A program made the translations under genes and the position numbers. Shown here one piece after another: positions 288 through 36,333 of a DNA stretch of 36,485 bases. The notes beneath the pieces were generated by a model. That model ran no database searches. It had not been told where the DNA came from and saw only the letters and a list, made by a program, of their open reading frames with translations. The first letter of the stretch is position 1. The number at the start of each line of letters is the position of its first letter. Location: the NCBI GenBank assembly GCA_902727915.1, contig CACVAU010000029.1, forward strand, positions 1 through 36,485, given 5' to 3'. This DNA is from an uncultured Sulfurovum sp. (GTDB taxonomy: Bacteria > Campylobacterota > Campylobacteria > Campylobacterales > Sulfurovaceae).

Positions 288-1394
288 ATGATACAAATAA
301 ATAAAGTGAGTTTTATGGAATTACTAGAATATTTTTATGATAGAAATAATGATATTGACAACTACCATCCAAGAAAATTTAACATTTCTGCCAATGAAAA
401 AATTCTTATCTATGGGTCGCCTGCATCAGGTAAGACTTCTTTAGTACTTGATTATTTAATGCGCTTTGATTCTGAAAATATTTTATATATTGATTTTCAA
501 GATCCAAAATTTGCTTTTCGTGATATTATGGAAGAAGATGTTCAAGGCTTTATTAATGCTCATAATATTAACTACTTAATCCTAGATCATTATGAACATG
601 AATATTTTGAACTCTTCCCAACAGTTAAACAACTCATTATCTTAAGTGCAACCTTTTATCAATATGAAGAAAATATAGAGGTGCTTAAAGTTCCTTTACT
701 TGATTATGAAGAATTTTTTTCGTTTCAAAAAAGAGGAACTGAAAAACAAATATTTAATTTATTTATACGACAAGGTACTTTACCTGCATTAGCAATACAG
801 TCTACCCCTAAAGAACAACTTTTTTTAAATTTTATACGCAGTCATTTTAATGACTCAGAACAAAAACTACTGGCTGTATTGGCTCACTTTAATGGGGCTA
901 CGGTCACAACCTTTCAACTTTATACTCATGCCAAAGAGCGTTACAAAATTTCAAAAGATTTAATTTACAAACAAATCAAATCCTTTAAAGAGCAAGGTAT
1001 CATAACATTTATTAGTGATATAGAAAATCCTAAACAAAAAAGGCTTCTTTTCTTTGATTTTGCTCTTGCAAAATATCTAACCTTATCACAAGGTTTTCCT
1101 AAACAATTTGAAACCATGGTTGCATTATCATTGGTTAAACATAAAATTCCTTTTAAAACTTTTAGTACCAATGCCTATATAACACATATCAATCACCTTA
1201 TCCTTCCTGCTCCCTTTGAAAATGAAGAAAGTTCTTGGAAAAAGGCACATAATAAATTTGCCAACTATAAAAAACAAAAAATTCAAAAAGTATACATTAT
1301 TACAGTAGGAACAAGTTTTGAATTTAGAATTGAAAATATTACTTTTGAAGCACTACCTTTTTATGAATGGGTAGTGATTAATGATGAAAGTTAA
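288..1394 (+). CDS. P-loop ATPase of unknown role
   Basis: This 368-residue protein has a Walker A motif GSPASGKTS at about residues 43-51 and a likely Walker B strand NYLILDHYEHE near residues 95-105. The layout fits the ATP-binding proteins often annotated next to ribosomal operons in epsilonproteobacteria: a small AAA-type core followed by a helical region (about 190-280) that may hold a winged helix. No signal peptide or membrane segment is seen. The start at 288 follows AAAGGA about 11 bases upstream. It is transcribed away from rpsJ and its 3' end overlaps the convergent gene by four bases. ATP binding is well supported; the biological role is not known. Confidence 0.7.
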   Translation: MIQINKVSFMELLEYFYDRNNDIDNYHPRKFNISANEKILIYGSPASGKTSLVLDYLMRFDSENILYIDFQDPKFAFRDIMEEDVQGFINAHNINYLILDHYEHEYFELFPTVKQLIILSATFYQYEENIEVLKVPLLDYEEFFSFQKRGTEKQIFNLFIRQGTLPALAIQSTPKEQLFLNFIRSHFNDSEQKLLAVLAHFNGATVTTFQLYTHAKERYKISKDLIYKQIKSFKEQGIITFISDIENPKQKRLLFFDFALAKYLTLSQGFPKQFETMVALSLVKHKIPFKTFSTNAYITHINHLILPAPFENEESSWKKAHNKFANYKKQKIQKVYIITVGTSFEFRIENITFEALPFYEWVVINDES

Positions 1395-6109: not shown

Positions 6110-6727
6110 TTACTCTTTCAACTGATTAAAGGTACTATTTTCACCCATATTTCTTGGTTGATAATTCATCAAAAAATCACCTTTAACTTTCCCATCTGAA
6201 AAGCTACTGCGATATCCTAAACCTTCAACCACCACCCGTGTTTTTGCTCTAGCATCAATGTTTTTCCAATTTTCATACTCTACTCTGTATAAAGCACTGT
6301 ACATTTGCGCTCTACCTGTACCATGATAACAGTGAATCAAAATGGGATAGTTGTCTGCTTTATCCAAAATTTCAAAAAACTTGCTTAATGTCTTTTTTGT
6401 AGGTACTTGACCCGAAGGAATATTCACATGCTGAATATTTAAATGATGTTTTTCATTAATTTTATTAATTGCTTTATCTTCAGCATCTATCTCAGCTTGT
6501 TTTGCAGGATTTAACCGATCTTGTACACCGGGATCCAATAAATCTATAACGGTTTTAATCTTATTTTCTAACAAGAAATCTTCCAGTTTATCTGGACTAA
6601 TAAGTGCTGATTTATATACTTTGTTTTCACTAATTTCTTCAAATCGATAGTTAAAATGAACATGCCATACATAGTATGTAATACCCACCAACAAAATAAC
6701 ACCCATATATTTAAATATTCTTTTCAT
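6110..6727 (-). CDS. membrane-anchored tyrosine/dual-specificity phosphatase-like protein
   Basis: The 205-residue protein has one N-terminal membrane helix (about residues 7-21) and a cysteine-phosphatase domain. The P-loop is HCYHGTGR at 132-139, with the CX5R signature C133 and R139, and the general-acid segment may lie near VIDLLDPG (60-67). Small phosphatases of this kind sit beside envelope-modifying transferases, where the substrate can be a phospholipid or a phosphorylated glycan rather than a protein. It is the first gene of a two-gene operon with the sulfatase-fold transferase (one-base gap), so a joint role in envelope lipid or glycan modification is likely. Its true substrate is unknown. 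Confidence 0.75.
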   Translation of the reverse strand: MKRIFKYMGVILLVGITYYVWHVHFNYRFEEISENKVYKSALISPDKLEDFLLENKIKTVIDLLDPGVQDRLNPAKQAEIDAEDKAINKINEKHHLNIQHVNIPSGQVPTKKTLSKFFEILDKADNYPILIHCYHGTGRAQMYSALYRVEYENWKNIDARAKTRVVVEGLGYRSSFSDGKVKGDFLMNYQPRNMGENSTFNQLKE

Positions 6728-6756
6728 CTAAGCTCCTATCTGCCAATAATAGACGA

Positions 6757-6780
6757 ATTTTATCTAACTTTAGATAAAAT
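6757..6780. promoter_or_regulatory. perfect 11-bp inverted repeat with divergent -10 boxes
   Basis: ATTTTATCTAA and TTAGATAAAAT are separated by CT, between the phosphatase gene (minus) and the GT32-like gene (plus). Read outward, each arm ends in GATAAAAT, a common -10 form in this window. The repeat can therefore be two divergent promoters face to face, an operator, or both. Confidence 0.55.
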
Positions 6781-6808
6781 CGAGTCTTACATAATATTGG
6801 GAGTAAGC

Positions 6809-7624
6809 ATGTCATTTAAAATAGTTCTTGCCAATCGTTCGATTAAAATTTTAGGTGCTATGGTCAAAGGTGTAAGCTATTTATTCCACACTATTTTCCC
6901 TCAAAAACGCTTTATCATTCCCAAATATACTAAAGCTTTACGTCCTTCAAAAGAAAAGACAGGCATTCCTAAAATTATTTGGCAAACAAACTTTAGCAGT
7001 AGCGTTACCTTACCTGTTTATGCTAACTATCTTTTTAACCGTTATCTCTCTCCTGATTATGAACATCGTTATGTCAGTACAGAAGCACGGTATACCTTTT
7101 TAGAAGATCATGCACCTAAAGAGGTTTTTGAAGCCTATGCACAACTCACTGATGGGGCTGCCCAAGCTGATTTATGGCGTATGTTTACCTTAAATTTTTA
7201 TGGAGGTGTTTACATGGACATTGATGCCCATGCTGTTTGGCCTCTTTCAAAAATGATTCAAGCTGATGATAAAGAGATATTCTTACTCAACAAACAACAC
7301 TATACCAACTACTTTATTGCCAGTGAAAAAGAGAATCCCATTCTACAAAAAACCATTGATATTATTGTTGACAATATTCAAAAGAAAAAAATAGAAGGGG
7401 GTGTGTACGACTTAACAGGTCCCAATACCCTCAACCTTGCCATAGGCACTCAAACCGTAAATCATAGATTTTATCGCCATACTTGTGTTCAAGGAAGTTT
7501 TACCAATGAATATTTTCAATACTTAGATAAACCCAAAGGCAAATGGACACATGCCAAGAATGAGACACTTTTAAAAAGTGATACAACTCAAAAAAATAAG
7601 CATATAAATGGAGAATTAAATTAA
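6809..7624 (+). CDS. GT32-like glycosyltransferase
   Basis: The 271-residue protein starts at the ATG at 6809, preceded by GGGAG; an upstream ATG in frame would overlap the divergent gene and lacks a ribosome site. The family signature is clear: PKIIWQTNF near residue 54, then [20 protein letters not shown] and the D137-I-D139 metal/sugar-nucleotide motif. This matches the DXD sugar-binding family (Gly_transf_sug, OCH1/GT32), which often adds hexoses to surface polysaccharides using a nucleotide sugar. It is cytoplasmic or membrane-associated. It overlaps the next gene by one base (TAATG) and opens a four-gene glycan operon. Confidence 0.82.
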
Positions 7625-8559
7625 TGAAAAAACGCGTATTAGTTACTGGTGGTGCTGGATTTGTAGGTAGTCACTTATGTCGAAGATTACTCAAGGATGG
7701 TCATGATGTTATCTGTTTAGACAACTTTTTTACAGGGGACAAAGCCAATATTCTTGATATGATGGAAAATCCCTATTTTGAACTGGTAAGACATGATGTT
7801 CAAGAAGCTATTTTATTAGAGGTTGATGAAATTTATAATCTTGCGTGTCCTGCCTCTCCACCTTATTACCAATTTGACCCAGTGGCGACCACAAAAACAT
7901 CAGTCATGGGTGCCATTAATATGTTGGGCATGGCTAAAAAATGTAAAGCCAAAATTTTACAAGCCAGTACTTCAGAGGTTTATGGTGACCCCGAAGTTCA
8001 TCCTCAACCTGAAAGCTATCGAGGCAGTGTAAGCACCACAGGAATTCGTGCTTGTTATGATGAAGGAAAACGCTGTGCTGAAACACTGTTCTTTGATTAC
8101 TATCGACAACATGATGTAAAAATTAAAGTAATTCGTATTTTCAATACCTATGGTCCAGCCATGAATCCTAATGATGGTCGTGTAGTTAGTAATTTTATTG
8201 TTCAAGCCCTTAAAGGGGAAGACATTACCATGTATGGCGATGGAACACAAAGCCGAAGTTTCCAATATGTTGATGACCTTATTGAAGGAATGGTACTCCT
8301 TATGGACAGTCCTGATGCATTCACAGGGCCTGTAAACATAGGAAATCCAAATGAATTTACCATGTTAGAACTGGCTCAAAAAGTGATTGAGCTTACAGGG
8401 AGTTCTTCTAAAATCATCTTCCAACCTTTACCACAAGATGACCCTTTACAACGACAACCTCTTATTGAGTTGGCAAAAAAAGAGTTAAATTGGGAACCTA
8501 CCATTCAACTGGAAGAAGGATTAAAGAAAACAATTAACTATTTTAAAAGTGTTATATAA
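7624..8559 (+). CDS. uxs: UDP-glucuronate decarboxylase (UDP-xylose synthase)
   Basis: This extended short-chain dehydrogenase (311 residues) converts UDP-glucuronate to UDP-xylose with bound NAD. It shows the N-terminal [13 protein letters not shown] site (residues 8-17), the diagnostic [11 protein letters not shown] segment (73-83), TSEVYGDP, and the catalytic YDEGKR with Y145 and K149. The arginine-rich C-terminal pattern [10 protein letters not shown] also fits the family. The length equals that of cytosolic or bacterial UXS. It lies between glycosyltransferases with no gaps, implying that xylose or a xylose-derived sugar enters the surface glycan made here. ArnA-type or dTDP-glucose dehydratase activity is less likely given the [10 protein letters not shown] motif. 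Confidence 0.92.
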
Positions 8560-9381
8560 ATGACAATCAGTATTATTATCTCAGTCTATAAAGATGTTGA
8601 GGCATTAAGCTTAGTGATTAATTCCCTACTCCATCAAACCCATTTAGCTGATGAAATCATTATTTCAGAAGATGGTAATAGTGCTGAAATGAAAAAGTAT
8701 GTTAACACTCTTAATGAACCAAGTATCAAACACCTATCCCAAATAGATAATGGTTGGCAAAAAAATCAAGCACTGAATCAATCCATTCACGCCAGTTCTT
8801 CTAAGTATTTAATCTTTATTGATGGAGACTGTGTTCCGTATCCTAACTTTATTGAAGGACATTATGCTCTTGCCAAAGACAATGCTGTACTCTGTGGTAG
8901 GAGAAGTGAACCAGGTGAACACTTCTCAACCCTACTAAAAACAAGTCAATTAAGTATTCAAAAGTTTGTATCTAACTATGTGAAAAACTATTTTAAATTA
9001 AAGCAGGATAACATTAGACATTATGATGAAGGTCTCTATCTAAACCCAAACGCTAGCCTGTTAAAAATCATAAAATTTTTTAGACGAAAAAAAGAGAATC
9101 ATATTGTAGGTTGTAACTTCTCTTGTTGGAAATCAGATTTAGAAAAAATTAATGGATTTGATGAAGACTTTCACTTACCTACAACAGGTGAAGATACTGA
9201 TATTGAAAGAAGAATGCGACATTTTGACATTAAAATGGAATCTTGTCGATACAGTGCGAACCTTATACATTTATACCATGAAAAAATTTTCAACCCTGAA
9301 ATATCAGCCAAAACAGAAGCACTTATGGCAAGTAAAAAAGATATATTTATTTGTAAAAATGGATTAAGGAAACTTAACTAA
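8560..9381 (+). CDS. GT2 family glycosyltransferase
   Basis: A 273-residue GT-A enzyme. It opens with MTISIIISVYKDVEAL, carries the metal-binding D88-G-D90 in FIDGDCVPYP, and has the C-terminal signature GCNFSCWKSDL...GEDTDIERR (about 184-218) seen in GT2 enzymes with a galactosyltransferase-type C-terminal module. It would add a sugar from a nucleotide donor to a growing glycan on the cytoplasmic face. No membrane segment is seen. The ATG directly follows the uxs stop codon, and the gene ends one base inside the next start (TAATG), so translation is probably coupled. Sugar specificity cannot be read from sequence. Confidence 0.88.
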   Translation: MTISIIISVYKDVEALSLVINSLLHQTHLADEIIISEDGNSAEMKKYVNTLNEPSIKHLSQIDNGWQKNQALNQSIHASSSKYLIFIDGDCVPYPNFIEGHYALAKDNAVLCGRRSEPGEHFSTLLKTSQLSIQKFVSNYVKNYFKLKQDNIRHYDEGLYLNPNASLLKIIKFFRRKKENHIVGCNFSCWKSDLEKINGFDEDFHLPTTGEDTDIERRMRHFDIKMESCRYSANLIHLYHEKIFNPEISAKTEALMASKKDIFICKNGLRKLN

Positions 9382-10373
9382 TGAACCTACTCTATATTAA
9401 TCGCCCTAATTTCGACTATATTCAAGATTTTATCTATACAGGTCTAATCTCTGTGCTTGGTAAAGAACAAGTGATTGAATATCCATGGAATTTTAAATAC
9501 CATGTTAACCATCGTCCTTATCCTAAAAACATTGGATTGGTTACAGGAAATTTTTTTGGCTCTCTCTTTTCTAAAGTGGACTTTAAAAATATTGATGCTG
9601 TTATTCTTTCCTCCTGTCACCCTTTTAATATGCAAAAGTATTTAGAGATAATGGATAAAATAGACACGAATGTACCCCGAATATTTTTAGATGGTGGAGA
9701 TTTTCCTGAAGTAGCAGGAGACTTAAGTCGATTGGGTGGAGAAGAAATCTATCAAGAGATTATCAAAAAACGCCCTTTTGATTTAATCTTTAAAAGAGAG
9801 TACCTTTTAAATAAATCTTATGAAGCCAATGTACACTCCCTTCCTCTTTGTTTTAACTTAAAACATCTCCCCTCTAAACAAACTTCAAATTATAAATACG
9901 ATGTAGCATTTTGGGCAGTAGAGACAGCCCCTATACGCACAAAATCTCTGGAACTATTAGAAAATAAATTTGACTGTAAGAGTAATGGAACAGTAAGAAA
10001 CCAAGTCATGTCTAAATACAAACGAAAAGGGACATTTTACTTAGAAGAGTTACAAAGCTGTAAAATAGGACTAAACTTTCGTGGTGGAGGTTGGGACACT
10101 TTACGTTATTGGGAACTGGCTGCATTGGGCTGTTTCATGATTTCACAACGACCTCAAATTAAAATTGACAATAACTTTATTGAAGGTGAAGAGATTATCT
10201 ATTGTAAAGATGATTTAAGCGATTTAATTGAACTTTGTAACTACTATTTAGAACATGAAGAAGAGCGAAAAAGAATAGGCTCAAATGCCCAAAAAAGACT
10301 CAAAAAACATCATAGTAATATCGCAAGGGCAAGATTTATAATCGAGAAGATAGAAGCCTTACAGAATGATTAA
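9381..10373 (+). CDS. GT-B glycosyltransferase, CgeB / Glyco_trans_1_2 type
   Basis: The 330-residue protein has a C-terminal GT-B half with the CgeB-like pattern: FRGGGWDTLRYWELAALG at about 233-250, then a helix ending in SNAQKRLKKHHS. The N-terminal half starts MNLLYINRPN and includes FLDGGDFPE (102-110), which fits this family better than a classical GT4 enzyme. It probably transfers a sugar to the same core or O-chain glycan as its neighbours. It is the last gene of the 6809-10373 operon. Substrates are unknown. Confidence 0.75.
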   Translation: MNLLYINRPNFDYIQDFIYTGLISVLGKEQVIEYPWNFKYHVNHRPYPKNIGLVTGNFFGSLFSKVDFKNIDAVILSSCHPFNMQKYLEIMDKIDTNVPRIFLDGGDFPEVAGDLSRLGGEEIYQEIIKKRPFDLIFKREYLLNKSYEANVHSLPLCFNLKHLPSKQTSNYKYDVAFWAVETAPIRTKSLELLENKFDCKSNGTVRNQVMSKYKRKGTFYLEELQSCKIGLNFRGGGWDTLRYWELAALGCFMISQRPQIKIDNNFIEGEEIIYCKDDLSDLIELCNYYLEHEEERKRIGSNAQKRLKKHHSNIARARFIIEKIEALQND

Positions 10374-10553
10374 AGATAAATCCCCTTCATTACTAGAATT
10401 AGCTCTAATATTATAGTGATTTAAACCAGCTTGTTCCACAAAATGAAATATAACCCCAAATAGATATAAACTAAAATAATAACCAACATTATTAGGCTTA
10501 GTCTAAGCTTTATAAAAAAATTTTAACTTTTATTATATTTAAAAATTTATAAG
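10374..10553. other. gene-free stretch between convergent transcription units
   Basis: AT-rich sequence between the end of the plus-strand glycosyltransferase operon and the interrupted minus-strand small gene. The imperfect palindrome AGGCTTAGTCTAAGCTT lies near 10494-10510. I see no convincing terminator with a T run and no start-to-stop gene. A short minus-strand open frame without a start codon runs through part of it and looks like chance. Confidence 0.4.
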
Positions 10554-10725
10554 TTATAGAGGCAATAAAAACATTTTTTTGGCTTCTTGTTTTTCAATCG
10601 CAAGATAAAACAAAGTTTCAAACAGCTCTTTTTCCCCAAATCTTTTTAATAATTCTATGGTTTTACTTCTGTCTATTAAATTACAAGTATCAAGTATCAA
10701 GTATCTTTTCTATTCTTTTTTTCAT
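10554..10725 (-). pseudogene. small gene put out of frame by a 7-base tandem repeat
   Basis: From the ATG at 10725 (AGGG five bases upstream, just after the stop of the barstar-like gene) the frame reads MKKRIEKILDT and then stops. The stop lies in three tandem copies of ATACTTG (minus strand, about 10685-10705). With two copies the frame stays open to the TAA at 10554-10556 and gives 54 residues: a basic start, then helical segments such as TIELLKRFGEKELFETLFYL. I do not recognise the product. In the present state a TTG inside the repeat is the only in-frame alternative start, with a poor ribosome site. The gene may be off in a variable locus, or simply broken. Confidence 0.6.
10685..10705 (-). 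repeat. heptanucleotide tandem repeat (ATACTTG)3
   Basis: Three perfect copies of a 7-base unit lie near codon 8 of a small open frame. Because 7 is not a multiple of 3, gain or loss of one unit shifts the frame. Two copies would open the frame; three, as here, close it after 11 codons, and one would also close it. Confidence 0.85.
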
Positions 10726-10728
10726 TGT

Positions 10729-11472
10729 TCACCCTAAATATTTAAACAAAACAACTTTCTCTTCTCTAGCCCAATATTCATTATACAGTTGAAATGATTC
10801 CATAATTACATTATACAAGTTTCGATTTTGCTCTTCTAAATGGCTCTTATTTTTAACTTCTACAAGAATTTCCTCTTCAACTATCCAAGCCAAATCTCTC
10901 ATACACTCATCTAAAGCATCCAAATTAAAACCAAAATAACTAGGAAAATAAAATGCTTCATGCATCATCTCTAAAAACTGTTTTTTGCTCTGTATCCTAT
11001 TAAGGTTTAAACATATTGTTCGTTTATTTTTTGGTTCCGTTATCAAACTTTTCACCTTTCGATAATTCATCAAGAAGCTTCCTCTATAACCCCAATCTTC
11101 AGTCTCATCTTCTACTTGTGGATTCAGAAAAGTCACCTCTTCATTCTCTATTCCTAAAGCCCAACATGTCCATTGCCAATCATTTTCTAATACCTCTTCA
11201 ATAAAATAAATAAACAACTTACACTCTTCTACTAAACCCTTCTCATTCAACAATGATGAATCCAAAATATTTGTTAAATTCTCATAATGTTTAAGTAGTC
11301 CATCTCTACTTGCCCAATTACTCCAGTACTTTGTCAAAAATGTTTCACCATTGTTAGGTAATCCACTTTGGTCAATACCCATCATTTCACAAGTATAATC
11401 CCAGTCCTGACCAAAAAGCATCCCAAAGTCATTAAGAAGTTTGGCTACATGTTCTAATTTTATTGTATTCAC
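10729..11472 (-). CDS. barstar-like protein with a novel N-terminal region
   Basis: The 247-residue protein ends in a barstar (barnase inhibitor) domain at about 150-247. After the strand RTICLNL comes FLEMMHEAFYFPSYFGFNLDALDECM (166-191), the barstar signature, with D185 matching barstar Asp35 and E189 in place of Asp39. The first 145 residues are unlike barstar and contain a duplicated motif: QDWDYTCEMMGI (22-33) and NDWQWTCWALGI (97-108). No signal peptide is seen. Barstar-family proteins bind and inhibit secreted or intracellular RNases, so this may be an orphan immunity protein. No barnase-like nuclease is nearby. A small interrupted gene follows directly, and the pair sits inside a glycan locus, where mobile immunity genes are sometimes found. 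Confidence 0.75.
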   Translation of the reverse strand: MNTIKLEHVAKLLNDFGMLFGQDWDYTCEMMGIDQSGLPNNGETFLTKYWSNWASRDGLLKHYENLTNILDSSLLNEKGLVEECKLFIYFIEEVLENDWQWTCWALGIENEEVTFLNPQVEDETEDWGYRGSFLMNYRKVKSLITEPKNKRTICLNLNRIQSKKQFLEMMHEAFYFPSYFGFNLDALDECMRDLAWIVEEEILVEVKNKSHLEEQNRNLYNVIMESFQLYNEYWAREEKVVLFKYLG

Positions 11473-11515
11473 TTTAACTCAATTCTCAATTTTATAAAGG
11501 TACTTTTACAGTCTA

Positions 11516-12064
11516 TTACGGCTCCCAATTAATCCCCTCTTTTACAACCCTAGCAGGATTTCCTGCAACGATTGTATGGGATGGAATAGACTTGGTAACC
11601 ATAGAATTAATACCTACCACAGCCCCTGAAGCTATCTCAACACCTTTTAAAATCGTTACATTATCAGCAATCCAAATATTATCACCCAATATAATGTCTT
11701 GTGCCTCATTTATGCGTACACCATTTTGATAGATAGGGTGACCATCTGATGCCATCATTTTTACATTTCTTGACAAACCACAAGATTCGCCAATCATCAA
11801 ATTAATCTTCTCTTCTTTAACCATTAAATAGCAGTCATCACCAATCATACTATTTTTACCTATTTTGACAGAACAATTATTACCCATAATTTCAATATTA
11901 GAACGATGAATTTTAACACCTTCTTCTAATTCAAGTTTATTATTCAAACCTTTAATTGTTATTCTACAGCCCACTAATTTAATGTTTGTTGCAAGTTTAA
12001 GTTTTGTACTTTTATCAACACGTATTTTATTTCTAACCTTTTGAACAAATGTAAAATTGCTCAT
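11516..12064 (-). CDS. left-handed beta-helix acyltransferase (probably O-acetyltransferase)
   Basis: The 182-residue protein has hexapeptide repeats throughout (for example VKIGKNSMIGDDC and IILGDNIWIADNVTILKGVEIASGAVVGINSMVTKSI) and ends with the family hallmark AGNPARVV (167-174). The likely catalytic histidine is H109 in SDGHPIY. This is the layout of the WbbJ/CapG/maltose acetyltransferase group, which moves an acetyl group from acetyl-CoA onto a sugar. It lies two bases downstream of the GT4 gene on the same strand, so it probably acetylates the same glycan. The exact acceptor is unknown. Confidence 0.88.
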   Translation of the reverse strand: MSNFTFVQKVRNKIRVDKSTKLKLATNIKLVGCRITIKGLNNKLELEEGVKIHRSNIEIMGNNCSVKIGKNSMIGDDCYLMVKEEKINLMIGESCGLSRNVKMMASDGHPIYQNGVRINEAQDIILGDNIWIADNVTILKGVEIASGAVVGINSMVTKSIPSHTIVAGNPARVVKEGINWEP

Positions 12065-12066
12065 TA

Positions 12067-13149
12067 CTATCCTTTTATTACTTGATATAACTTCTCTAAC
12101 TGTACATCAGCATCAAATTTTTCTTTTGCTTTTTCATACCCTAACATAGCCAGTTGCTCTTTTAATTTAGGCTGATGATAAAGCATGGAGATTTTATTGG
12201 CTAAATCCTCACTACTTCTATCAAACAATAACCCATCTTCTCCATCATCAATAATCTCCAATGGTCCCCCATTATTCGTAGCAACCATACATACTTTATT
12301 CATCATCGCTTCTATCACAACCAACCCAAAAGTTTCTCTTGGAGTTGCTAGGATATTAACATCAAAAAGTTGCAAATGAACAGCCACCTCTTTAGTGAAA
12401 CCTGTAAAAATAACTTGCTTCTCAATCCCAAAATTTTTCACTTGAACTTTTAAAGTATTGAGATAATCTTCATCCATCGTATGTCCGACAATTAAAGCTT
12501 TTATATTGAGTTCTTTAAGCTTGGCAATCGCTTCCAATACCAAATATTGCCCTTTTACCTCTTCTATTCGTCCCACAATCCCAACAACAAAAGCATCATT
12601 TAGTGCATACTGCTTTTTCAATTCATTAACTTTTGAGGATGCTACCTCTTCCTCTTTCGTTCCCATATAAACTACTTTAACCTTAGGTCGAACATCAGCA
12701 GGAATAAATTTCTCTAACTGTGCTTTCAACTGATAAGTTACACCATGCATCGTACTAATATTCTTATAAAGCCACTTATGATAAACATCATCCTTAAAAC
12801 GTGTCATGGTCATATTTCTTGTTTGAATAATCTCTGGTTTTCGTTGACTCAATGTTTTGGCTAAGACAACAGTCGCGATGTCTTTAGTCCAATGAAAATG
12901 AATCACATCAATCTCATACTTATCAATAAATTGGGCTAACTTAAATGCTGGAATAAAAGGGAAAAATTTATTACGATTCATATAAAATTTAGCCTCATCC
13001 TCAACAAAAGCATCTAACTTTTGATTAGGAGCAAGTATAATCTTACAGTTGGTTTTTGTCTTAAAATATTCATAACAATTAACCATAAAAAGTTCTAAAC
13101 CACCAAGATCAGGAGAGAGACAAAATTCTAATATGTTTTTCTTTTTCAT
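12067..13149 (-). CDS. GT4 family glycosyltransferase
   Basis: This 360-residue GT-B enzyme has the GT4 retaining-transferase core: GIVGRIEEVKGQYLVLEAI (about 190-208), ILATPRETFGLVVIEAM (267-282) with the EX7E-type motif, and NNGGPLEIIDDGEDGLLF. The N-terminal half contains a glycine-rich loop PDLGGLELF near residue 13 that contacts the nucleotide sugar. It would add a sugar to lipopolysaccharide core or O-chain at the inner face of the membrane. It starts the minus-strand block that continues into the acetyltransferase. No Shine-Dalgarno sequence precedes its ATG, and a TATAAT box ends only five bases before it, which suggests a leaderless message. Confidence 0.9.
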   Translation of the reverse strand: MKKKNILEFCLSPDLGGLELFMVNCYEYFKTKTNCKIILAPNQKLDAFVEDEAKFYMNRNKFFPFIPAFKLAQFIDKYEIDVIHFHWTKDIATVVLAKTLSQRKPEIIQTRNMTMTRFKDDVYHKWLYKNISTMHGVTYQLKAQLEKFIPADVRPKVKVVYMGTKEEEVASSKVNELKKQYALNDAFVVGIVGRIEEVKGQYLVLEAIAKLKELNIKALIVGHTMDEDYLNTLKVQVKNFGIEKQVIFTGFTKEVAVHLQLFDVNILATPRETFGLVVIEAMMNKVCMVATNNGGPLEIIDDGEDGLLFDRSSEDLANKISMLYHQPKLKEQLAMLGYEKAKEKFDADVQLEKLYQVIKG

Positions 13150-14730: not shown

Positions 14731-15651
14731 ATGAACATTCTAATCACCCGTCATGACAAAATAGGTGACTTCATCACCATGCTACCTGTCTGTAAAGTAT
14801 TAAAAGAACAAAGCAATCATAAAGTTGTTATGCTCGTTGCCAAAGTCAATGTGGCTTTAGCCAAAGAGCTTGATTTTATAGATGAGGTCATTGAATATAC
14901 TGAAGATAGTAAAGCTTTAGTTCAAACCATAAAATCATATAACTTTAGTGTTAGTATCTCAGGTTATATCGATACTTCTTTAGGAAAAGTTCTTTTTAAA
15001 TCACGCATTCCAAAACGTATCGCACCTGCCACTAAAATAGCCCAAATCTTTTTTAACAAACGCGTCAAACAACGAAGAAGTGAGGTAAAAAAACGAGAAT
15101 TTGAATACAATTTAGACTTACTCAAAGCCTTTGATAATAATTTAACTTTAAATTTTAAACGCCCTTTACTAAACGTAGATTCGATTTCATCGAACACAAA
15201 ACCATTCATCATCTTCCACACAGGATTTGGTGGAAGCAGTGATGGAAACTTAACACTTGACGACTATCTAAAACTGGCAAAAAAAGCATCCGAACATACA
15301 GAAGTAGTTTTTTCCTTCGGACCTGATGATGATGAATCCAAAGCTTACATCAAAAAACACTTAGATTTTAAAGCAAATATTAGAGATGACTTTAAAAGTC
15401 TTTTAGACTTCACCCACTTCATTGCGACTTCAAAACTCTTTGTCAGCACCTCCACGGGACCCATGCACTTAGCAGGAATGACCAATACCCCTACCCTTTC
15501 ATTTTTTGGAGCAAACCTATTTGCTTCTGCGAAACGTTGGGGAACGATTAGTGATGAAGACTTACAGCATAACTTTACAGTTGAAGCTGATTATGGTGTT
15601 GAGGTTTATAAAGAGATTGAAGAAAAGCTAATGGACATTATTAATGAATAA
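14731..15651 (+). CDS. GT9 heptosyltransferase-family protein
   Basis: The 306-residue protein begins MNILITRHDKIGDFITMLPV, the acceptor-side motif of ADP-heptose:LPS heptosyltransferases. It also has the nucleotide-side pattern FVSTSTGPMHLAGMTNTPTLSFFG (about 233-256). It is likely to add a heptose to the inner core, using the ADP-heptose made by the gene block at 18256-21851. The position (before WaaF) and the family fit WaaC or a third heptosyltransferase (WaaQ-like); I cannot choose between them. The start follows the previous stop by three bases, and the end overlaps the next gene by eight bases. Confidence 0.88.
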   Translation: MNILITRHDKIGDFITMLPVCKVLKEQSNHKVVMLVAKVNVALAKELDFIDEVIEYTEDSKALVQTIKSYNFSVSISGYIDTSLGKVLFKSRIPKRIAPATKIAQIFFNKRVKQRRSEVKKREFEYNLDLLKAFDNNLTLNFKRPLLNVDSISSNTKPFIIFHTGFGGSSDGNLTLDDYLKLAKKASEHTEVVFSFGPDDDESKAYIKKHLDFKANIRDDFKSLLDFTHFIATSKLFVSTSTGPMHLAGMTNTPTLSFFGANLFASAKRWGTISDEDLQHNFTVEADYGVEVYKEIEEKLMDIINE

Positions 15652-16789
15652 TAGATTCCCATGGGACAGCTATTCTGACCAACCCTACATCCTAAAACGA
15701 GAAGAGAAAAAAGCTCTACGTAAAGGACATAAACTAGCCTTTATAAAACTTCTAATGACCAACCTCATCTTCTTTCCCTATCTTTTTTTAAAGTTTCTGC
15801 TTAAGAGCAAAAAAACTAAAAATGATGAGAGCCATTATAACTACAACCAAAGAGCTAAAGACAGCATTGGTCTCTGTGTCAACCTAGATAAAGGTGAAGC
15901 TCAATATGAACTCATCAATGAGCTAAATGTCAAATCATTACAAATACGTGTCTTTTTAAATGACATGAACAATATAGATGATTATCTAAATTTTACCAAA
16001 GGCTTTGGAGAAGATAAAGAGCTACTCATCACCATTATTCAAGATCGTGAACATATTGAAAATCATGAACTATTAAAAGAAAACGTAACTATTATTTTTG
16101 AAAAGTTTCAAGGCATAGCCAATGAGTTTCAAATTGGCAATGCCATTAATCGTATAAAGTGGTCATTTGTTTCAATGGAAGAGTATTTAGCTTTTTATCA
16201 AACCATTCAAAAAGTACGTGATGAACAATTCCCAGATATCAAGCTTATTGGTTCATCAGTAATAGATTTTGAATACCACTTTAGCATTCGTACTCTATTT
16301 AATAACTACAAAGTACATTACGATAAATTTTCTACCCTACTTTATGTTGACCGACGTGGTAGCCCCTACTCTACACAAATGGGTATCTTTAATTTTAAAA
16401 ACAAAATAGAGTTTTTAGACAGTATTCTCAAAAGTTCCTCAAAATCAGGGAATAATATGTACATCACAGAAGCTAACTGGCCTTTAAGTGATACAGCTCC
16501 TTATGCACCAACTTCTGAAAAAGAATGCGTTAGTGAAGAACGCTATGCTCAATACATGAATGAATATTTTGAAATAGCATTAAAAACTAAGAAAATAGAA
16601 AAGGTTTTTTGGCACCAACTCATTGCACCTGGTTATGGACTTATTGATAATAGAAATGGGAAAATTCGTAAAACAAAAGCTTTTTATGACTTTAAAGAAT
16701 GGATGTACCAAAATCAGTTCTCTTATGAAGAGATGGGAACTTGCCATATATTACTTGATGAGGATAGAGGAGACACCAATCATGAATAA
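15644..16789 (+). CDS. glycosidase-like (beta/alpha)8 protein in the LPS core operon
   Basis: The 381-residue protein has a short basic N-terminus with one hydrophobic stretch (about residues 34-52) and then a region resembling clan GH-A glycosidases. NEFQIGNAINRIKWS (near 162-176) and NMYITEANWPLSDTAPY (near 272-288) fall where the acid/base and nucleophile strands would be. In the first, the usual NE is replaced by GN; in the second, the glutamate in TEAN is present. It may bind or trim a glycan rather than act as a normal hydrolase. The eight-base overlaps with GT9 and waaF show that it belongs to the core operon. The family assignment is tentative. Confidence 0.55.
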   Translation: MNNRFPWDSYSDQPYILKREEKKALRKGHKLAFIKLLMTNLIFFPYLFLKFLLKSKKTKNDESHYNYNQRAKDSIGLCVNLDKGEAQYELINELNVKSLQIRVFLNDMNNIDDYLNFTKGFGEDKELLITIIQDREHIENHELLKENVTIIFEKFQGIANEFQIGNAINRIKWSFVSMEEYLAFYQTIQKVRDEQFPDIKLIGSSVIDFEYHFSIRTLFNNYKVHYDKFSTLLYVDRRGSPYSTQMGIFNFKNKIEFLDSILKSSSKSGNNMYITEANWPLSDTAPYAPTSEKECVSEERYAQYMNEYFEIALKTKKIEKVFWHQLIAPGYGLIDNRNGKIRKTKAFYDFKEWMYQNQFSYEEMGTCHILLDEDRGDTNHE

Positions 16790-18892: not shown

Positions 18893-20323
18893 TTAACAAC
18901 TTTTACCTTGTATTTTCGCTATGGTTTTGGTCGTACTTTTGCCTTCTACAAAATTCACCAATCGTAACTCATCAGCAATATCTTGTCCTACAACCTTTTT
19001 ACCTTCATAATCCCCACCCTTAACTAAGATATGAGGTTGCACAGCTTTTATAAGTTCGTACGGGGTATCATCATAAAACTTTACCACATAATCCACGGCT
19101 TCAAGTGAAGCTAAAATGTAAGCTCTATCATTTTCCGTATTGACGGGACGTGTTGGACCTTTTAAACGAGAAACACTTTCATCAGAATTTAATCCTAATA
19201 TCAATACATCTCCATAACTTTTGGCTTCTTCCAAATACTTTACATGTCCTACATGTAAAATATCAAAACAACCATTGGTAAAGACTACTTTTTTACCTCG
19301 TTTTTTTAATTCCGTACTTAAAAGCTCTATCTCTTCAAGCGTCTTAATATGTGAATCAGAGGTTGATTTTTTTAAACTTGATTCATATTCTATAATTTCA
19401 TTCAGTGTAGCTGTAGCAGAACCAATCTTTCCCACCACTACTCCAGCTGCTAGATTCGCAAACTTTACAGCTTTGTCTATGTCATACCCACAAGAAAGTG
19501 AAAAACCAAGTGAAGCAATCACGGTATCTCCAGCTCCTGTGACATCATAGACTTCACGCGCAACCGTAGGATGTGTTCTAAGCGCATCATCAAAAATAGC
19601 AATTCCATCTTCACTCAAAGTAATTAAACCGATGAAAAGTTGACATTCATTTTTAAGTTTTCTAATTGCTTCTAACAGGGATACTTCATCTTTAATTTGT
19701 ATTTTAGAAGCTTCAATGGCTTCTTTTTTATTGGGTGTTAAAAGATAGGCTCCTGCGTATTTTGTATAATCTTGACCTTTTGGGTCAACCAGCACTTTTT
19801 TATTATATTCATTGGCAATGTCAATTAACATACGTGTTAATTTAGTTGTTAAAACTCCTTTACCATAATCTGAGAGTATCACCATATCACAACTACTAAT
19901 ATTATTTTTAAAATTCTCAATTATTTTTAGTTCAGATGCATTAGCAATATCATCAGTACTCTCTTTGTCATAGCGTACTACTTGCTGTTGAGAAGCGATA
20001 ATTCTGCTCTTTTTCGAAGTGTTTCTACCTTCTTGTACGACTAGATTATATGTATTCACTTCTATATCATCCAGCATACTTTTTAGTTCTTGAGCATTAG
20101 TATCATCACCAATCACCGACAAAACAGAAACCTTAGCACCTAAAGCAGATAAGTTATTAATAACATTTCCAGCCCCACCCAATACAGCTGTCTCTTTCTC
20201 AACTGCAACTACTTGTACAGGTGCTTCAGGTGAAATACGTTCACACTTTCCCCAAAGATAGTGATCTATCATCAAATCACCAACAACTAAAATATTGGGC
20301 TTTTTACCTTTGAGTTCTATCAT
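18893..20323 (-). CDS. hldE: bifunctional heptose 7-phosphate kinase / heptose 1-phosphate adenylyltransferase
   Basis: The 476-residue protein joins two domains. Residues 1-315 are a PfkB/ribokinase-type kinase (GGAGNVINNLSALGA at 49-63, VTGAGDTVIASLGF at 261-274 with catalytic D266). Residues 335-476 are a cytidylyltransferase-like domain (FTNGCFDILHVGH, 348-360). It phosphorylates heptose 7-phosphate at C1 and later adds AMP to heptose 1-phosphate. The domain order and length match E. coli HldE. It overlaps hldD by four bases. The dephosphorylation between its two reactions is done by GmhB, encoded in the same operon. Confidence 0.97.
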   Translation of the reverse strand: MIELKGKKPNILVVGDLMIDHYLWGKCERISPEAPVQVVAVEKETAVLGGAGNVINNLSALGAKVSVLSVIGDDTNAQELKSMLDDIEVNTYNLVVQEGRNTSKKSRIIASQQQVVRYDKESTDDIANASELKIIENFKNNISSCDMVILSDYGKGVLTTKLTRMLIDIANEYNKKVLVDPKGQDYTKYAGAYLLTPNKKEAIEASKIQIKDEVSLLEAIRKLKNECQLFIGLITLSEDGIAIFDDALRTHPTVAREVYDVTGAGDTVIASLGFSLSCGYDIDKAVKFANLAAGVVVGKIGSATATLNEIIEYESSLKKSTSDSHIKTLEEIELLSTELKKRGKKVVFTNGCFDILHVGHVKYLEEAKSYGDVLILGLNSDESVSRLKGPTRPVNTENDRAYILASLEAVDYVVKFYDDTPYELIKAVQPHILVKGGDYEGKKVVGQDIADELRLVNFVEGKSTTKTIAKIQGKSC

Positions 20324-33913: not shown

Positions 33914-35146
33914 CTAAACCATAAGGTCTCTACACGCTTCATCGTCCAGTCCACCAAGCTTTACAAGCTCTCCAAAGTTTCTAAAAGGTGCATGGTAGTC
34001 ATTGGTCATGTAGTAATACATTGTCCAAAAACCAGTAATGACAAAGGTCGCTTTCCCCTCTTGTGCCAGTTTTCTAAAGGCTTTGGTGACTTTGTAGTCA
34101 TTTTGGGCATCAGCTACTATAAACTCGTCTCCTTCATCTATGAGGAAAATGGACTTTTTCTCTTTTTGTGAGAGGTAAGAGACCATCTCTTTAAGTTCTA
34201 AGCTTTCATCTAAGCCTAAAGCATTTTGCATCTCTAACAGTATCTGCTCATCATCCATTGTAATGTAGTACGCCTCCACATGATCATGCTCATCATAACG
34301 ACGTTTTAACGCACGTAAAACCGATGACTTACCCAACTGCCGTGAACCAACTATAAGGTAGTTTTTGTTGGTTCCCAATATATCACGAATAATCTCAACC
34401 CTACCAAAAAAGTTTGACTCATTTTTAATGTCTCCATTGGTCTGATAAGGCGAAACCTCTTTAGCCAAGAGACAATCAGCAAGTATCTCTATGAGTAACT
34501 CTTGTGAGTCTGAAGCAAGTAAAAACTCTGTAAGCTGTTCTACTGTAGGGGCTATCATAAAGTTTGTTTTTTCATGGGCTTTTTTTGCCACAGCATTTTG
34601 TTCACTGCTTTCACAAAGTACCAAAACCTTCTCTTGTTTGCTTATGACTTTTTTAGCAATGCTACTTGCAGAGGCATCACTAAGATAAACCAAAAAACTG
34701 TTAATGCTGTTTAAGTTAAATGCTTCAGGTAAATTAACACGGTAGTACTCCCCCTCTTTTTGGTAAGTGGCTTCTAGTTTTGTACTCAGTATGTTTACTT
34801 GTTCTTCTTTTGAACTTTCAAAAAATGCTAAGGCTTGCTCAAAGGTCTTTGGCTTAATATCTAAAGTTTTTAAAAGCGTTTTAAGTCGGTCTATTTTACT
34901 TAGGCGTTCTTTGGCTTCTTTTAGAAGGCTTGGCTTTAGGGTTTTCAAACCTGATGGTGTTTCTTCTAGTTTGACTATTAAAAGGGTCTTATATCGTTTA
35001 TAGTAAACTAGTAAGGACAGAATACCTAACATGATTAAAATATAAATCAAAAAAATTTTACCATTGGGGACAAGTGTGGGTAGTGCTGTAGTACTTGCGT
35101 AGAGTGTGGTAAAGAATAGAAGCAGAAAAGGTAGTAGTTTTTTCAT
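33914..35146 (-). CDS. N-terminal part of a membrane-anchored AAA/STAND-like ATPase, cut by an amber codon
   Basis: The 410-residue part has a signal peptide (1-18), a membrane helix (about 31-48), a coiled region (70-130), a mixed alpha/beta region (135-215) of unknown fold, then an AAA_16/STAND-type ATPase: SNFFGRVEIIRDIL (244-257), Walker A GSRQLGKSS (268-276), Walker B SIFLIDEGDE (332-341) and a sensor-like TFVITGFW (367-374). It stops at LGGLDDEACRDLMV, followed in frame by TAG-CCG-ATG-AAA and the missing C-terminus. ATP-dependent signalling or defence is possible, but no function is established. AGGAA lies before the start, right beside a REP-like element. Confidence 0.7.
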   Translation of the reverse strand: MKKLLPFLLLFFTTLYASTTALPTLVPNGKIFLIYILIMLGILSLLVYYKRYKTLLIVKLEETPSGLKTLKPSLLKEAKERLSKIDRLKTLLKTLDIKPKTFEQALAFFESSKEEQVNILSTKLEATYQKEGEYYRVNLPEAFNLNSINSFLVYLSDASASSIAKKVISKQEKVLVLCESSEQNAVAKKAHEKTNFMIAPTVEQLTEFLLASDSQELLIEILADCLLAKEVSPYQTNGDIKNESNFFGRVEIIRDILGTNKNYLIVGSRQLGKSSVLRALKRRYDEHDHVEAYYITMDDEQILLEMQNALGLDESLELKEMVSYLSQKEKKSIFLIDEGDEFIVADAQNDYKVTKAFRKLAQEGKATFVITGFWTMYYYMTNDYHAPFRNFGELVKLGGLDDEACRDLMV

Positions 35147-35794: not shown

Positions 35795-36070
35795 TTACTT
35801 TTTAAATATCTCACTATGAGAACCAATATCTGCTAATATTAGTGTGTCATCAATGATCTTGTAGGTTAAAAGTAAATCAGGCTTAATATGACACTCTCTA
35901 AATTCTTTTAGATTGCCTTTGAGTTGATGGTCTTTATACTTCTCTTCAAGTTCTATTCCATTCAAGAGTTTAAAAATCACATCAATATAGGCTAACTCTT
36001 CTTCATCATTCAGCTTCTTCTTTTTAAAACTTCTCTTGAAGTTGTTTGAGCGTTCTAATTGGTATTTCAA
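35795..36070 (-). CDS. yafQ: YafQ-family mRNA interferase toxin
   Basis: The 91-residue RelE-superfamily protein matches YafQ: DHQLKGNLKEFRECHIKPDL and then LLTYKI, ending ADIGSHSEIF. Residues corresponding to the E. coli YafQ active site are present: H48, H61, D65, H85 and F89. It cuts mRNA in the ribosomal A site when freed from its antitoxin. It overlaps the antitoxin gene by four bases. The reading frame is intact, so the pair should be functional. Confidence 0.92.
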   Translation of the reverse strand: MKYQLERSNNFKRSFKKKKLNDEEELAYIDVIFKLLNGIELEEKYKDHQLKGNLKEFRECHIKPDLLLTYKIIDDTLILADIGSHSEIFKK

Positions 36071-36333
36071 GATTTTAAATCTTTCATCATTTCAGCAATA
36101 GGGTCATCACTCGAATAACTTACTACTTCACCTCGCTCTATTTCATCAATTGATTTTTGAAAACTATCACTTGGTATTTTTACATCAAAAGGTAATCCTT
36201 TTTCTAGTCGAACTCTATTTAAAAATATATTGATGGCATCTGTAACCGTCATGTTATATTCTTTAAATATCTCTTTTGCACTATCCCATGCAACAGGGTC
36301 TACTTTAATTGATGTTTGTCTTCTTGTTGTCAT
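36067..36333 (-). CDS. dinJ: DinJ/RelB-family antitoxin
   Basis: The 88-residue protein has an N-terminal ribbon-helix-helix (TRRQTSIKVDPVAWDSAKEI, then MTVTDAINIFLNRV) and a flexible acidic C-terminus (SIDEIERGEVV ... DPIAEMMKDLK) that would wrap the toxin. It neutralises YafQ and represses its own promoter as a complex. The start has AAAGGAATTACCACA upstream, and the -10 box is at 36363-36368. Confidence 0.92.
   Translation of the reverse strand: MTTRRQTSIKVDPVAWDSAKEIFKEYNMTVTDAINIFLNRVRLEKGLPFDVKIPSDSFQKSIDEIERGEVVSYSSDDPIAEMMKDLKS

Follow-up and report, generated by a model that had tools for sequence, protein, structure and literature searches.

Does a short tandem repeat that throws a small gene out of frame act as a reversible switch, or does it record how the gene came to be lost? 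The question is raised by a 7-base repeat that lies, together with the small frame it interrupts, behind a barstar-like gene, where two units of a surface-glycan locus converge; by the window we mean the whole 36,485-nucleotide stretch of DNA that was analyzed. The reading that we favor, at a probability of roughly 0.45, is that a small orphan gene coupled to the barstar-like gene was frameshifted by slippage, as a passive and possibly fixed loss and not as the off position of a switch.

Results

The window DNA belongs to the Campylobacterota: the HldE-like product of 18893-20323 shares 72% identity with its counterpart in a metagenome genome labeled "Campylobacteraceae" and 65-69% with the closest records from Sulfurimonas, Sulfuricurvum, and Arcobacter. 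One of the two convergent units faces the barstar-like gene with a glycosyltransferase gene on the plus strand (9381-10373); the leftward unit consists of a second glycosyltransferase gene (13149-12067), a hexapeptide transferase gene (12064-11516), and the barstar-like gene (11472-10729), after which the small frame follows. A search of 10300-11700 found no terminators, and the nine promoter-like sites predicted there, compared with 7.7 in shuffles, amount to no signal; the predicted RNA structure of 10640-10745 is weaker than that of all 200 shuffles (z, +2.27). Elsewhere in the glycan locus, 15644-16789 on the plus strand encodes a 381-residue protein without a Pfam match at E 0.001. Two AAA_14-type ATPase genes, both barely over the Pfam cut-off, are situated one by each end of the window (288-1394 and 33914-35146).

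The barstar-like gene (10729-11472, minus strand) has a GTG start and 247 codons, and its product is a composite in which a two-unit N-terminal domain precedes a single immunity domain, a Barstar domain (PF01337) at residues 152-242 with an E value of 3.5e-20 and 72.2 bits against a cut-off of 23.4. The N-terminal part, residues 1 to about 145 (11472-11043, minus strand), comprises two units of a domain that has no name in Pfam or NCBIfam, the second of which carries TFLNPQVEDETEDWGYRG. A profile search with this domain returned 33 hits in total, namely, P0001-P0003 and 30 further protein clusters of 79-98 residues, three of which bear the organism names Tenacibaculum, Chitinophagaceae, and Chitinophagales (labeled Bacteroidota taxa). 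Fifteen of the 30 clusters were aligned with both window units, the second of which fitted well and the first loosely; the 17 aligned sequences matched no Pfam or NCBIfam model convincingly (best E values, 0.075 and 0.016), and the model of P0010 built from this alignment is helical, with a pLDDT of 75. The domain was found in none of the 175 genomes of the family of G001 at an E value of ≤1e-5, in a search run without a positive control. For the barstar-like protein as a whole, weak matches of 24-30% identity, all inside query residues 131-219, were obtained in 12 of 398 genomes of the order, six plasmid records matched at 29-33% identity, and the viral contigs yielded one pattern match and no relative. 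No barnase-type toxin adjoining the gene was recognized by Pfam among 11 window proteins or pieces. A YafQ-type toxin, paired with a RelB-type antitoxin according to Pfam (35795-36333, minus strand), is encoded close to the window end, about 24 kb from the barstar-like gene.

Two frames meet behind the barstar-like gene. Its stop codon, TGA, occupies 10731-10729 and is followed three bases on by an ATG (10725-10723), upstream of which, and overlapping that stop, lies the ribosome-site-like sequence AGGGTGA (10729-10735, minus strand), identified from its letters only. A start three bases past the stop of the preceding gene, with such a sequence ahead of it, is the arrangement of a coupled pair and is consistent with a translationally coupled second gene. 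Frame A, which begins at this ATG, comprises 11 codons and ends at a TGA (10692-10690), thus spanning 10690-10725 of the minus strand; frame B, one base off frame A on the same strand, contains 51 open codons (10709-10557), is closed by a TAA (10556-10554), and is bounded upstream by a TAG (10712-10710). At their junction a period-7 scan located a tandem repeat of 3.14 exact copies (10684-10705), which reads CAAGTAT on the plus strand and has the unit ATACTTG on the minus strand. The frames are open together over 17 bases only (10709-10693), 13 of which fall within the repeat, the strongest reason for attributing the frame shift to it. The preliminary description had been accurate on these points: it reported three copies of ATACTTG placing the small gene out of frame and an ATG with a ribosome site directly behind the barstar-like stop, with termination after 11 codons, and its 54-residue frame in a two-copy state agrees with the arithmetic (10725 to 10557 is 169 bases), a calculation for which no changed sequence was built. 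Programmed frameshifting at ACT TGA, considered as a way of joining the frames, was held to be unlikely; a +1 shift would be required, and the context known from prfB, CTT TGA, is absent.

In its exact kind, the repeat exceeds what chance would supply. When the window was shuffled 100 times with dinucleotides preserved, no exact period-7 run reached 22 bases; with every period from 5 to 12 admitted, tracts of three copies and one further base, or longer, appeared 0.1 times per shuffled window. The window itself has no other three-copy run of period 7. Across 28 Campylobacterota loci (355,838 bases), two heptamer tracts of three or more copies were detected, both in L025 (Campylobacter sp. UBA1713), where tracts of 7.9 copies (12437) and 3.7 copies (11431) stand about 1 kb apart, the 7.9-copy tract being longer than that of the window. 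The window repeat lies inside a frame and has a unit length that is not a multiple of three, as expected of a contingency locus; since slippage generates such tracts without selection, their rarity leaves function unproven.

Frame B looks weakly coding, and the measures of its coding signal point in different directions. When the 355-base gap was shuffled 2000 times with dinucleotides preserved, 581 of the products had a frame with at least 51 open codons, and any of three frames remained open for 47 codons behind the ATG at 10725 in 2.1% of 20000 base shuffles. The codon-usage score of frame B, which exceeds those of the other five frames over the same DNA and is near that of the barstar gene, was matched by 19 of the 1822 base shuffles that were fully open (of 400000 made). 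Measured against the rest of the window, frame B outscores only 35 of the 185 pieces of window genes that have its length, and its score is equaled or exceeded by 18 of the 142 open stretches that are not in the gene list. Pfam identifies two of the 18 as real small genes (RelB and YafQ), and there may be further genes among them. A single-sequence fold of the 51-residue piece shows three helices, with a pLDDT of 62, which is low. We put the chances that frame B is a real or recent gene at about two in three.

All searches for homologues used this 51-residue piece as the query. None was found among 5.8 billion proteins, but this miss does not weigh heavily, because targets in that search need three 5-residue words in common with the query and because very short proteins often go unpredicted. 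Viral contigs and plasmids likewise yielded no homologue, and phages yielded none beyond Lactobacillus phage LpeD (two records of one phage), whose E value of 0.9 was judged to reflect chance. Three sets of related genomes, which partly overlap so that their counts are not additive, gave no match beyond chance level. In the set of 20, seven genomes had matches, at eight places with an E value of ≤1. The lowest E value, 0.018, belonged to L081, where the match is in a different frame of a 729-codon gene and was rejected; those in L082, L083, and L085 were taken as chance level from their alignments alone, and the same was assumed of those in L084, L086, L087, and L088, which have E values between 0.19 and 0.47 and fall in open frames 232-855 residues long. 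Five of 175 genomes had matches at an E value of ≤0.05, compared with about nine expected by chance; the match in L112, within a 113-codon frame upstream of ATPase-like pieces, and those in L113 and L114, antisense to longer open reading frames, were rejected, and the alignments of L110 and L111, considered as alignments only, resemble that of L112. The set of 228 genomes gave no match at an E value of ≤0.01. Such an outcome is what would be expected of a young or decaying orphan.

Relatives of the hexapeptide transferase gene at 11516-12064 occur in 9 of 175 genomes of a related family; eight of the loci (L101-L108) were compared with the window, the ninth (L109, 36% identity) being excluded. 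A relative of the barstar-like gene is absent from all eight (tblastn E value of ≤1e-4; flanks of up to 1.5 kb), and the small frame had no match there better than an E value of 13. Neighbors vary: the relative of 11516-12064 shares one to four bases with a relative of 9381-10373 (60% identity) in L101 and L103, ends opposite the 3' end of a relative of 7624-8559 in L104 and L108, has different convergent neighbors in L102, L105, and L106, and occupies another setting in L107. In both L101 and L103, a glycosyltransferase gene is followed on its own strand by a GT2, then by the hexapeptide transferase gene and the relative of 9381-10373, the GT2 being 38-39% identical to the product of 8560-9381 and perhaps not the same gene; the order of genes in 6656-13149 of the window is unlike this, with two of these genes facing each other across the convergent junction. 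Because both the barstar-like gene and the small frame are missing from eight related loci with such varied neighbors, they look like cargo added at a variable junction, on a comparison of loci that are not those of close strains.

Discussion

We suggest that an orphan gene of about 54 codons was translationally coupled to the barstar-like immunity gene and that ordinary replication slippage in the 7-base tandem repeat moved it out of frame. In the sequenced cells the small gene would then stop after 11 codons and be off or much reduced; the loss would be passive and possibly already fixed, in a gene that was dispensable and recently gained, and would owe nothing to a selected switch. This reading is favored because the short overlap of the two frames lies mostly in the repeat and the ATG is accompanied by a ribosome-site-like sequence, and because the figures for chance openness and codon usage behind that ATG are low and the barstar-like gene is missing from the eight compared loci. 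Against it stand the considerations that long open stretches are common in AT-rich gaps and many pieces of the window score above frame B, and that so rare a three-copy tract could have been retained for a purpose. On balance the small gene is probably decaying, and the locus would then offer a snapshot of a small orphan gene dying by slippage.

The first of these considerations leads to a different account, in which frame B was never a gene, its open codons and the ATG having arisen by chance in AT-rich intergenic DNA to which the repeat is incidental. The frequency of equally long open stretches in shuffled gaps, the 18 further stretches outside the gene list that score as well, the failure to find a homologue, and the low-confidence fold all accord with this account, but it must accommodate both the 2.1% figure behind this particular ATG and the few open shuffles that equal the codon usage of frame B, and we regard it as rather unlikely, though second in probability to the favored reading. 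If frame B is instead a gene, it may still be translated, with nothing lost. The preliminary description overlooked a TTG at 10700 within the repeat, which opens 48 codons of frame B (10554-10700, minus strand) and begins eight bases ahead of the stop codon of the 11-codon leader, so placed that initiation there, or re-initiation after the leader, is conceivable. TTG starts are weak in general, the upstream sequence AGAAAAG was judged to be a poor ribosome site, and we give residual translation little credence. An error of assembly or a mixture of strains, with a third copy that is wrong in the contig, might be suspected from the occurrence of the barstar-like protein in two contigs; common read lengths exceed 22 bases, however, and a miscount is highly improbable because the tract is shorter than they are.

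Slippage could also work in both directions, toggling the small gene within the population; its product might be an accessory to the barstar-like gene or a further immunity factor. The unit length, the position of the tract near the start of the frame, and the scarcity of such heptamers are all what a switch would call for; against it, the tract has only three units, its product has no homologue, and the TTG inside the repeat would blunt the off state. We consider a switch unlikely, and very unlikely in the fuller form in which the repeat reversibly controls a second small protein, not seen before and co-produced with a barstar-type immunity protein of composite build, and an environmental Campylobacterota population keeps some cells that have this partner at the end of the glycan locus and others that lack it. 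In its interpretation, the preliminary description was right to place the repeat at the frame junction and to note the geometry of a coupled gene, and the statistics lend modest support to frame B having been coding; switching, which it offered as an inference, is so far unsupported, and the homologue of the small frame for which it advised a search, and whose absence it named as counting against its reading, turned up in none of the proteins, viral contigs, plasmids, phages, or related genomes. Were a switch nonetheless to operate, slippage would be controlling a small gene linked to immunity in a lineage that is apparently free-living; the phase-variation literature that we found deals mostly with pathogens. 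Independently of the repeat, the unnamed domain joined to barstar offers a lead that can be tested.

Comparison with known systems bears on both genes. As in the polyimmunity proteins, to judge from the portion of their description drawn on here (PMC3482391), the barstar-like protein combines an immunity domain with other domains in one polypeptide; unlike them, its N-terminal domain is unnamed in Pfam and NCBIfam and has no known immunity role, and it is encoded by a single gene and not an array. For the repeat, excerpts of two surveys set the scale. Heptamer tracts in Haemophilus influenzae Rd number 126 at a two-unit threshold and 0 at a three-unit threshold (PMC2651432), which accords with the rarity of three-copy tracts in our own loci and favors a switch; three units, the number in the window, equals that threshold but falls under the five-unit cut-off that a Campylobacter survey applied to longer units, of which its excerpted text reports none (PMC6321876), and is short for a contingency locus. 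The hmw1a and hmw2a tracts of H. influenzae quoted in the former source share the 7-base tandem unit, and PittAA hmw1a, with a 14-copy heptamer in frame and a frameshift, speaks for a switch; the quoted tracts have 13-38 copies and lie mostly upstream of the gene, whereas that of the window has three and lies in a frame (PMC2651432). The product of the Salmonella O-antigen acetyltransferase gene oafA is abolished by a repeatedly observed contraction of a 7-base repeat, according to the part of that report used here (PMC9705250); the window locus differs in that its product would be an orphan of about 54 codons, known from one sequence, but it shares with oafA a 7-base tandem unit within a coding frame, and by analogy the oafA contraction may serve as a precedent for the switching off of a gene by such a repeat.
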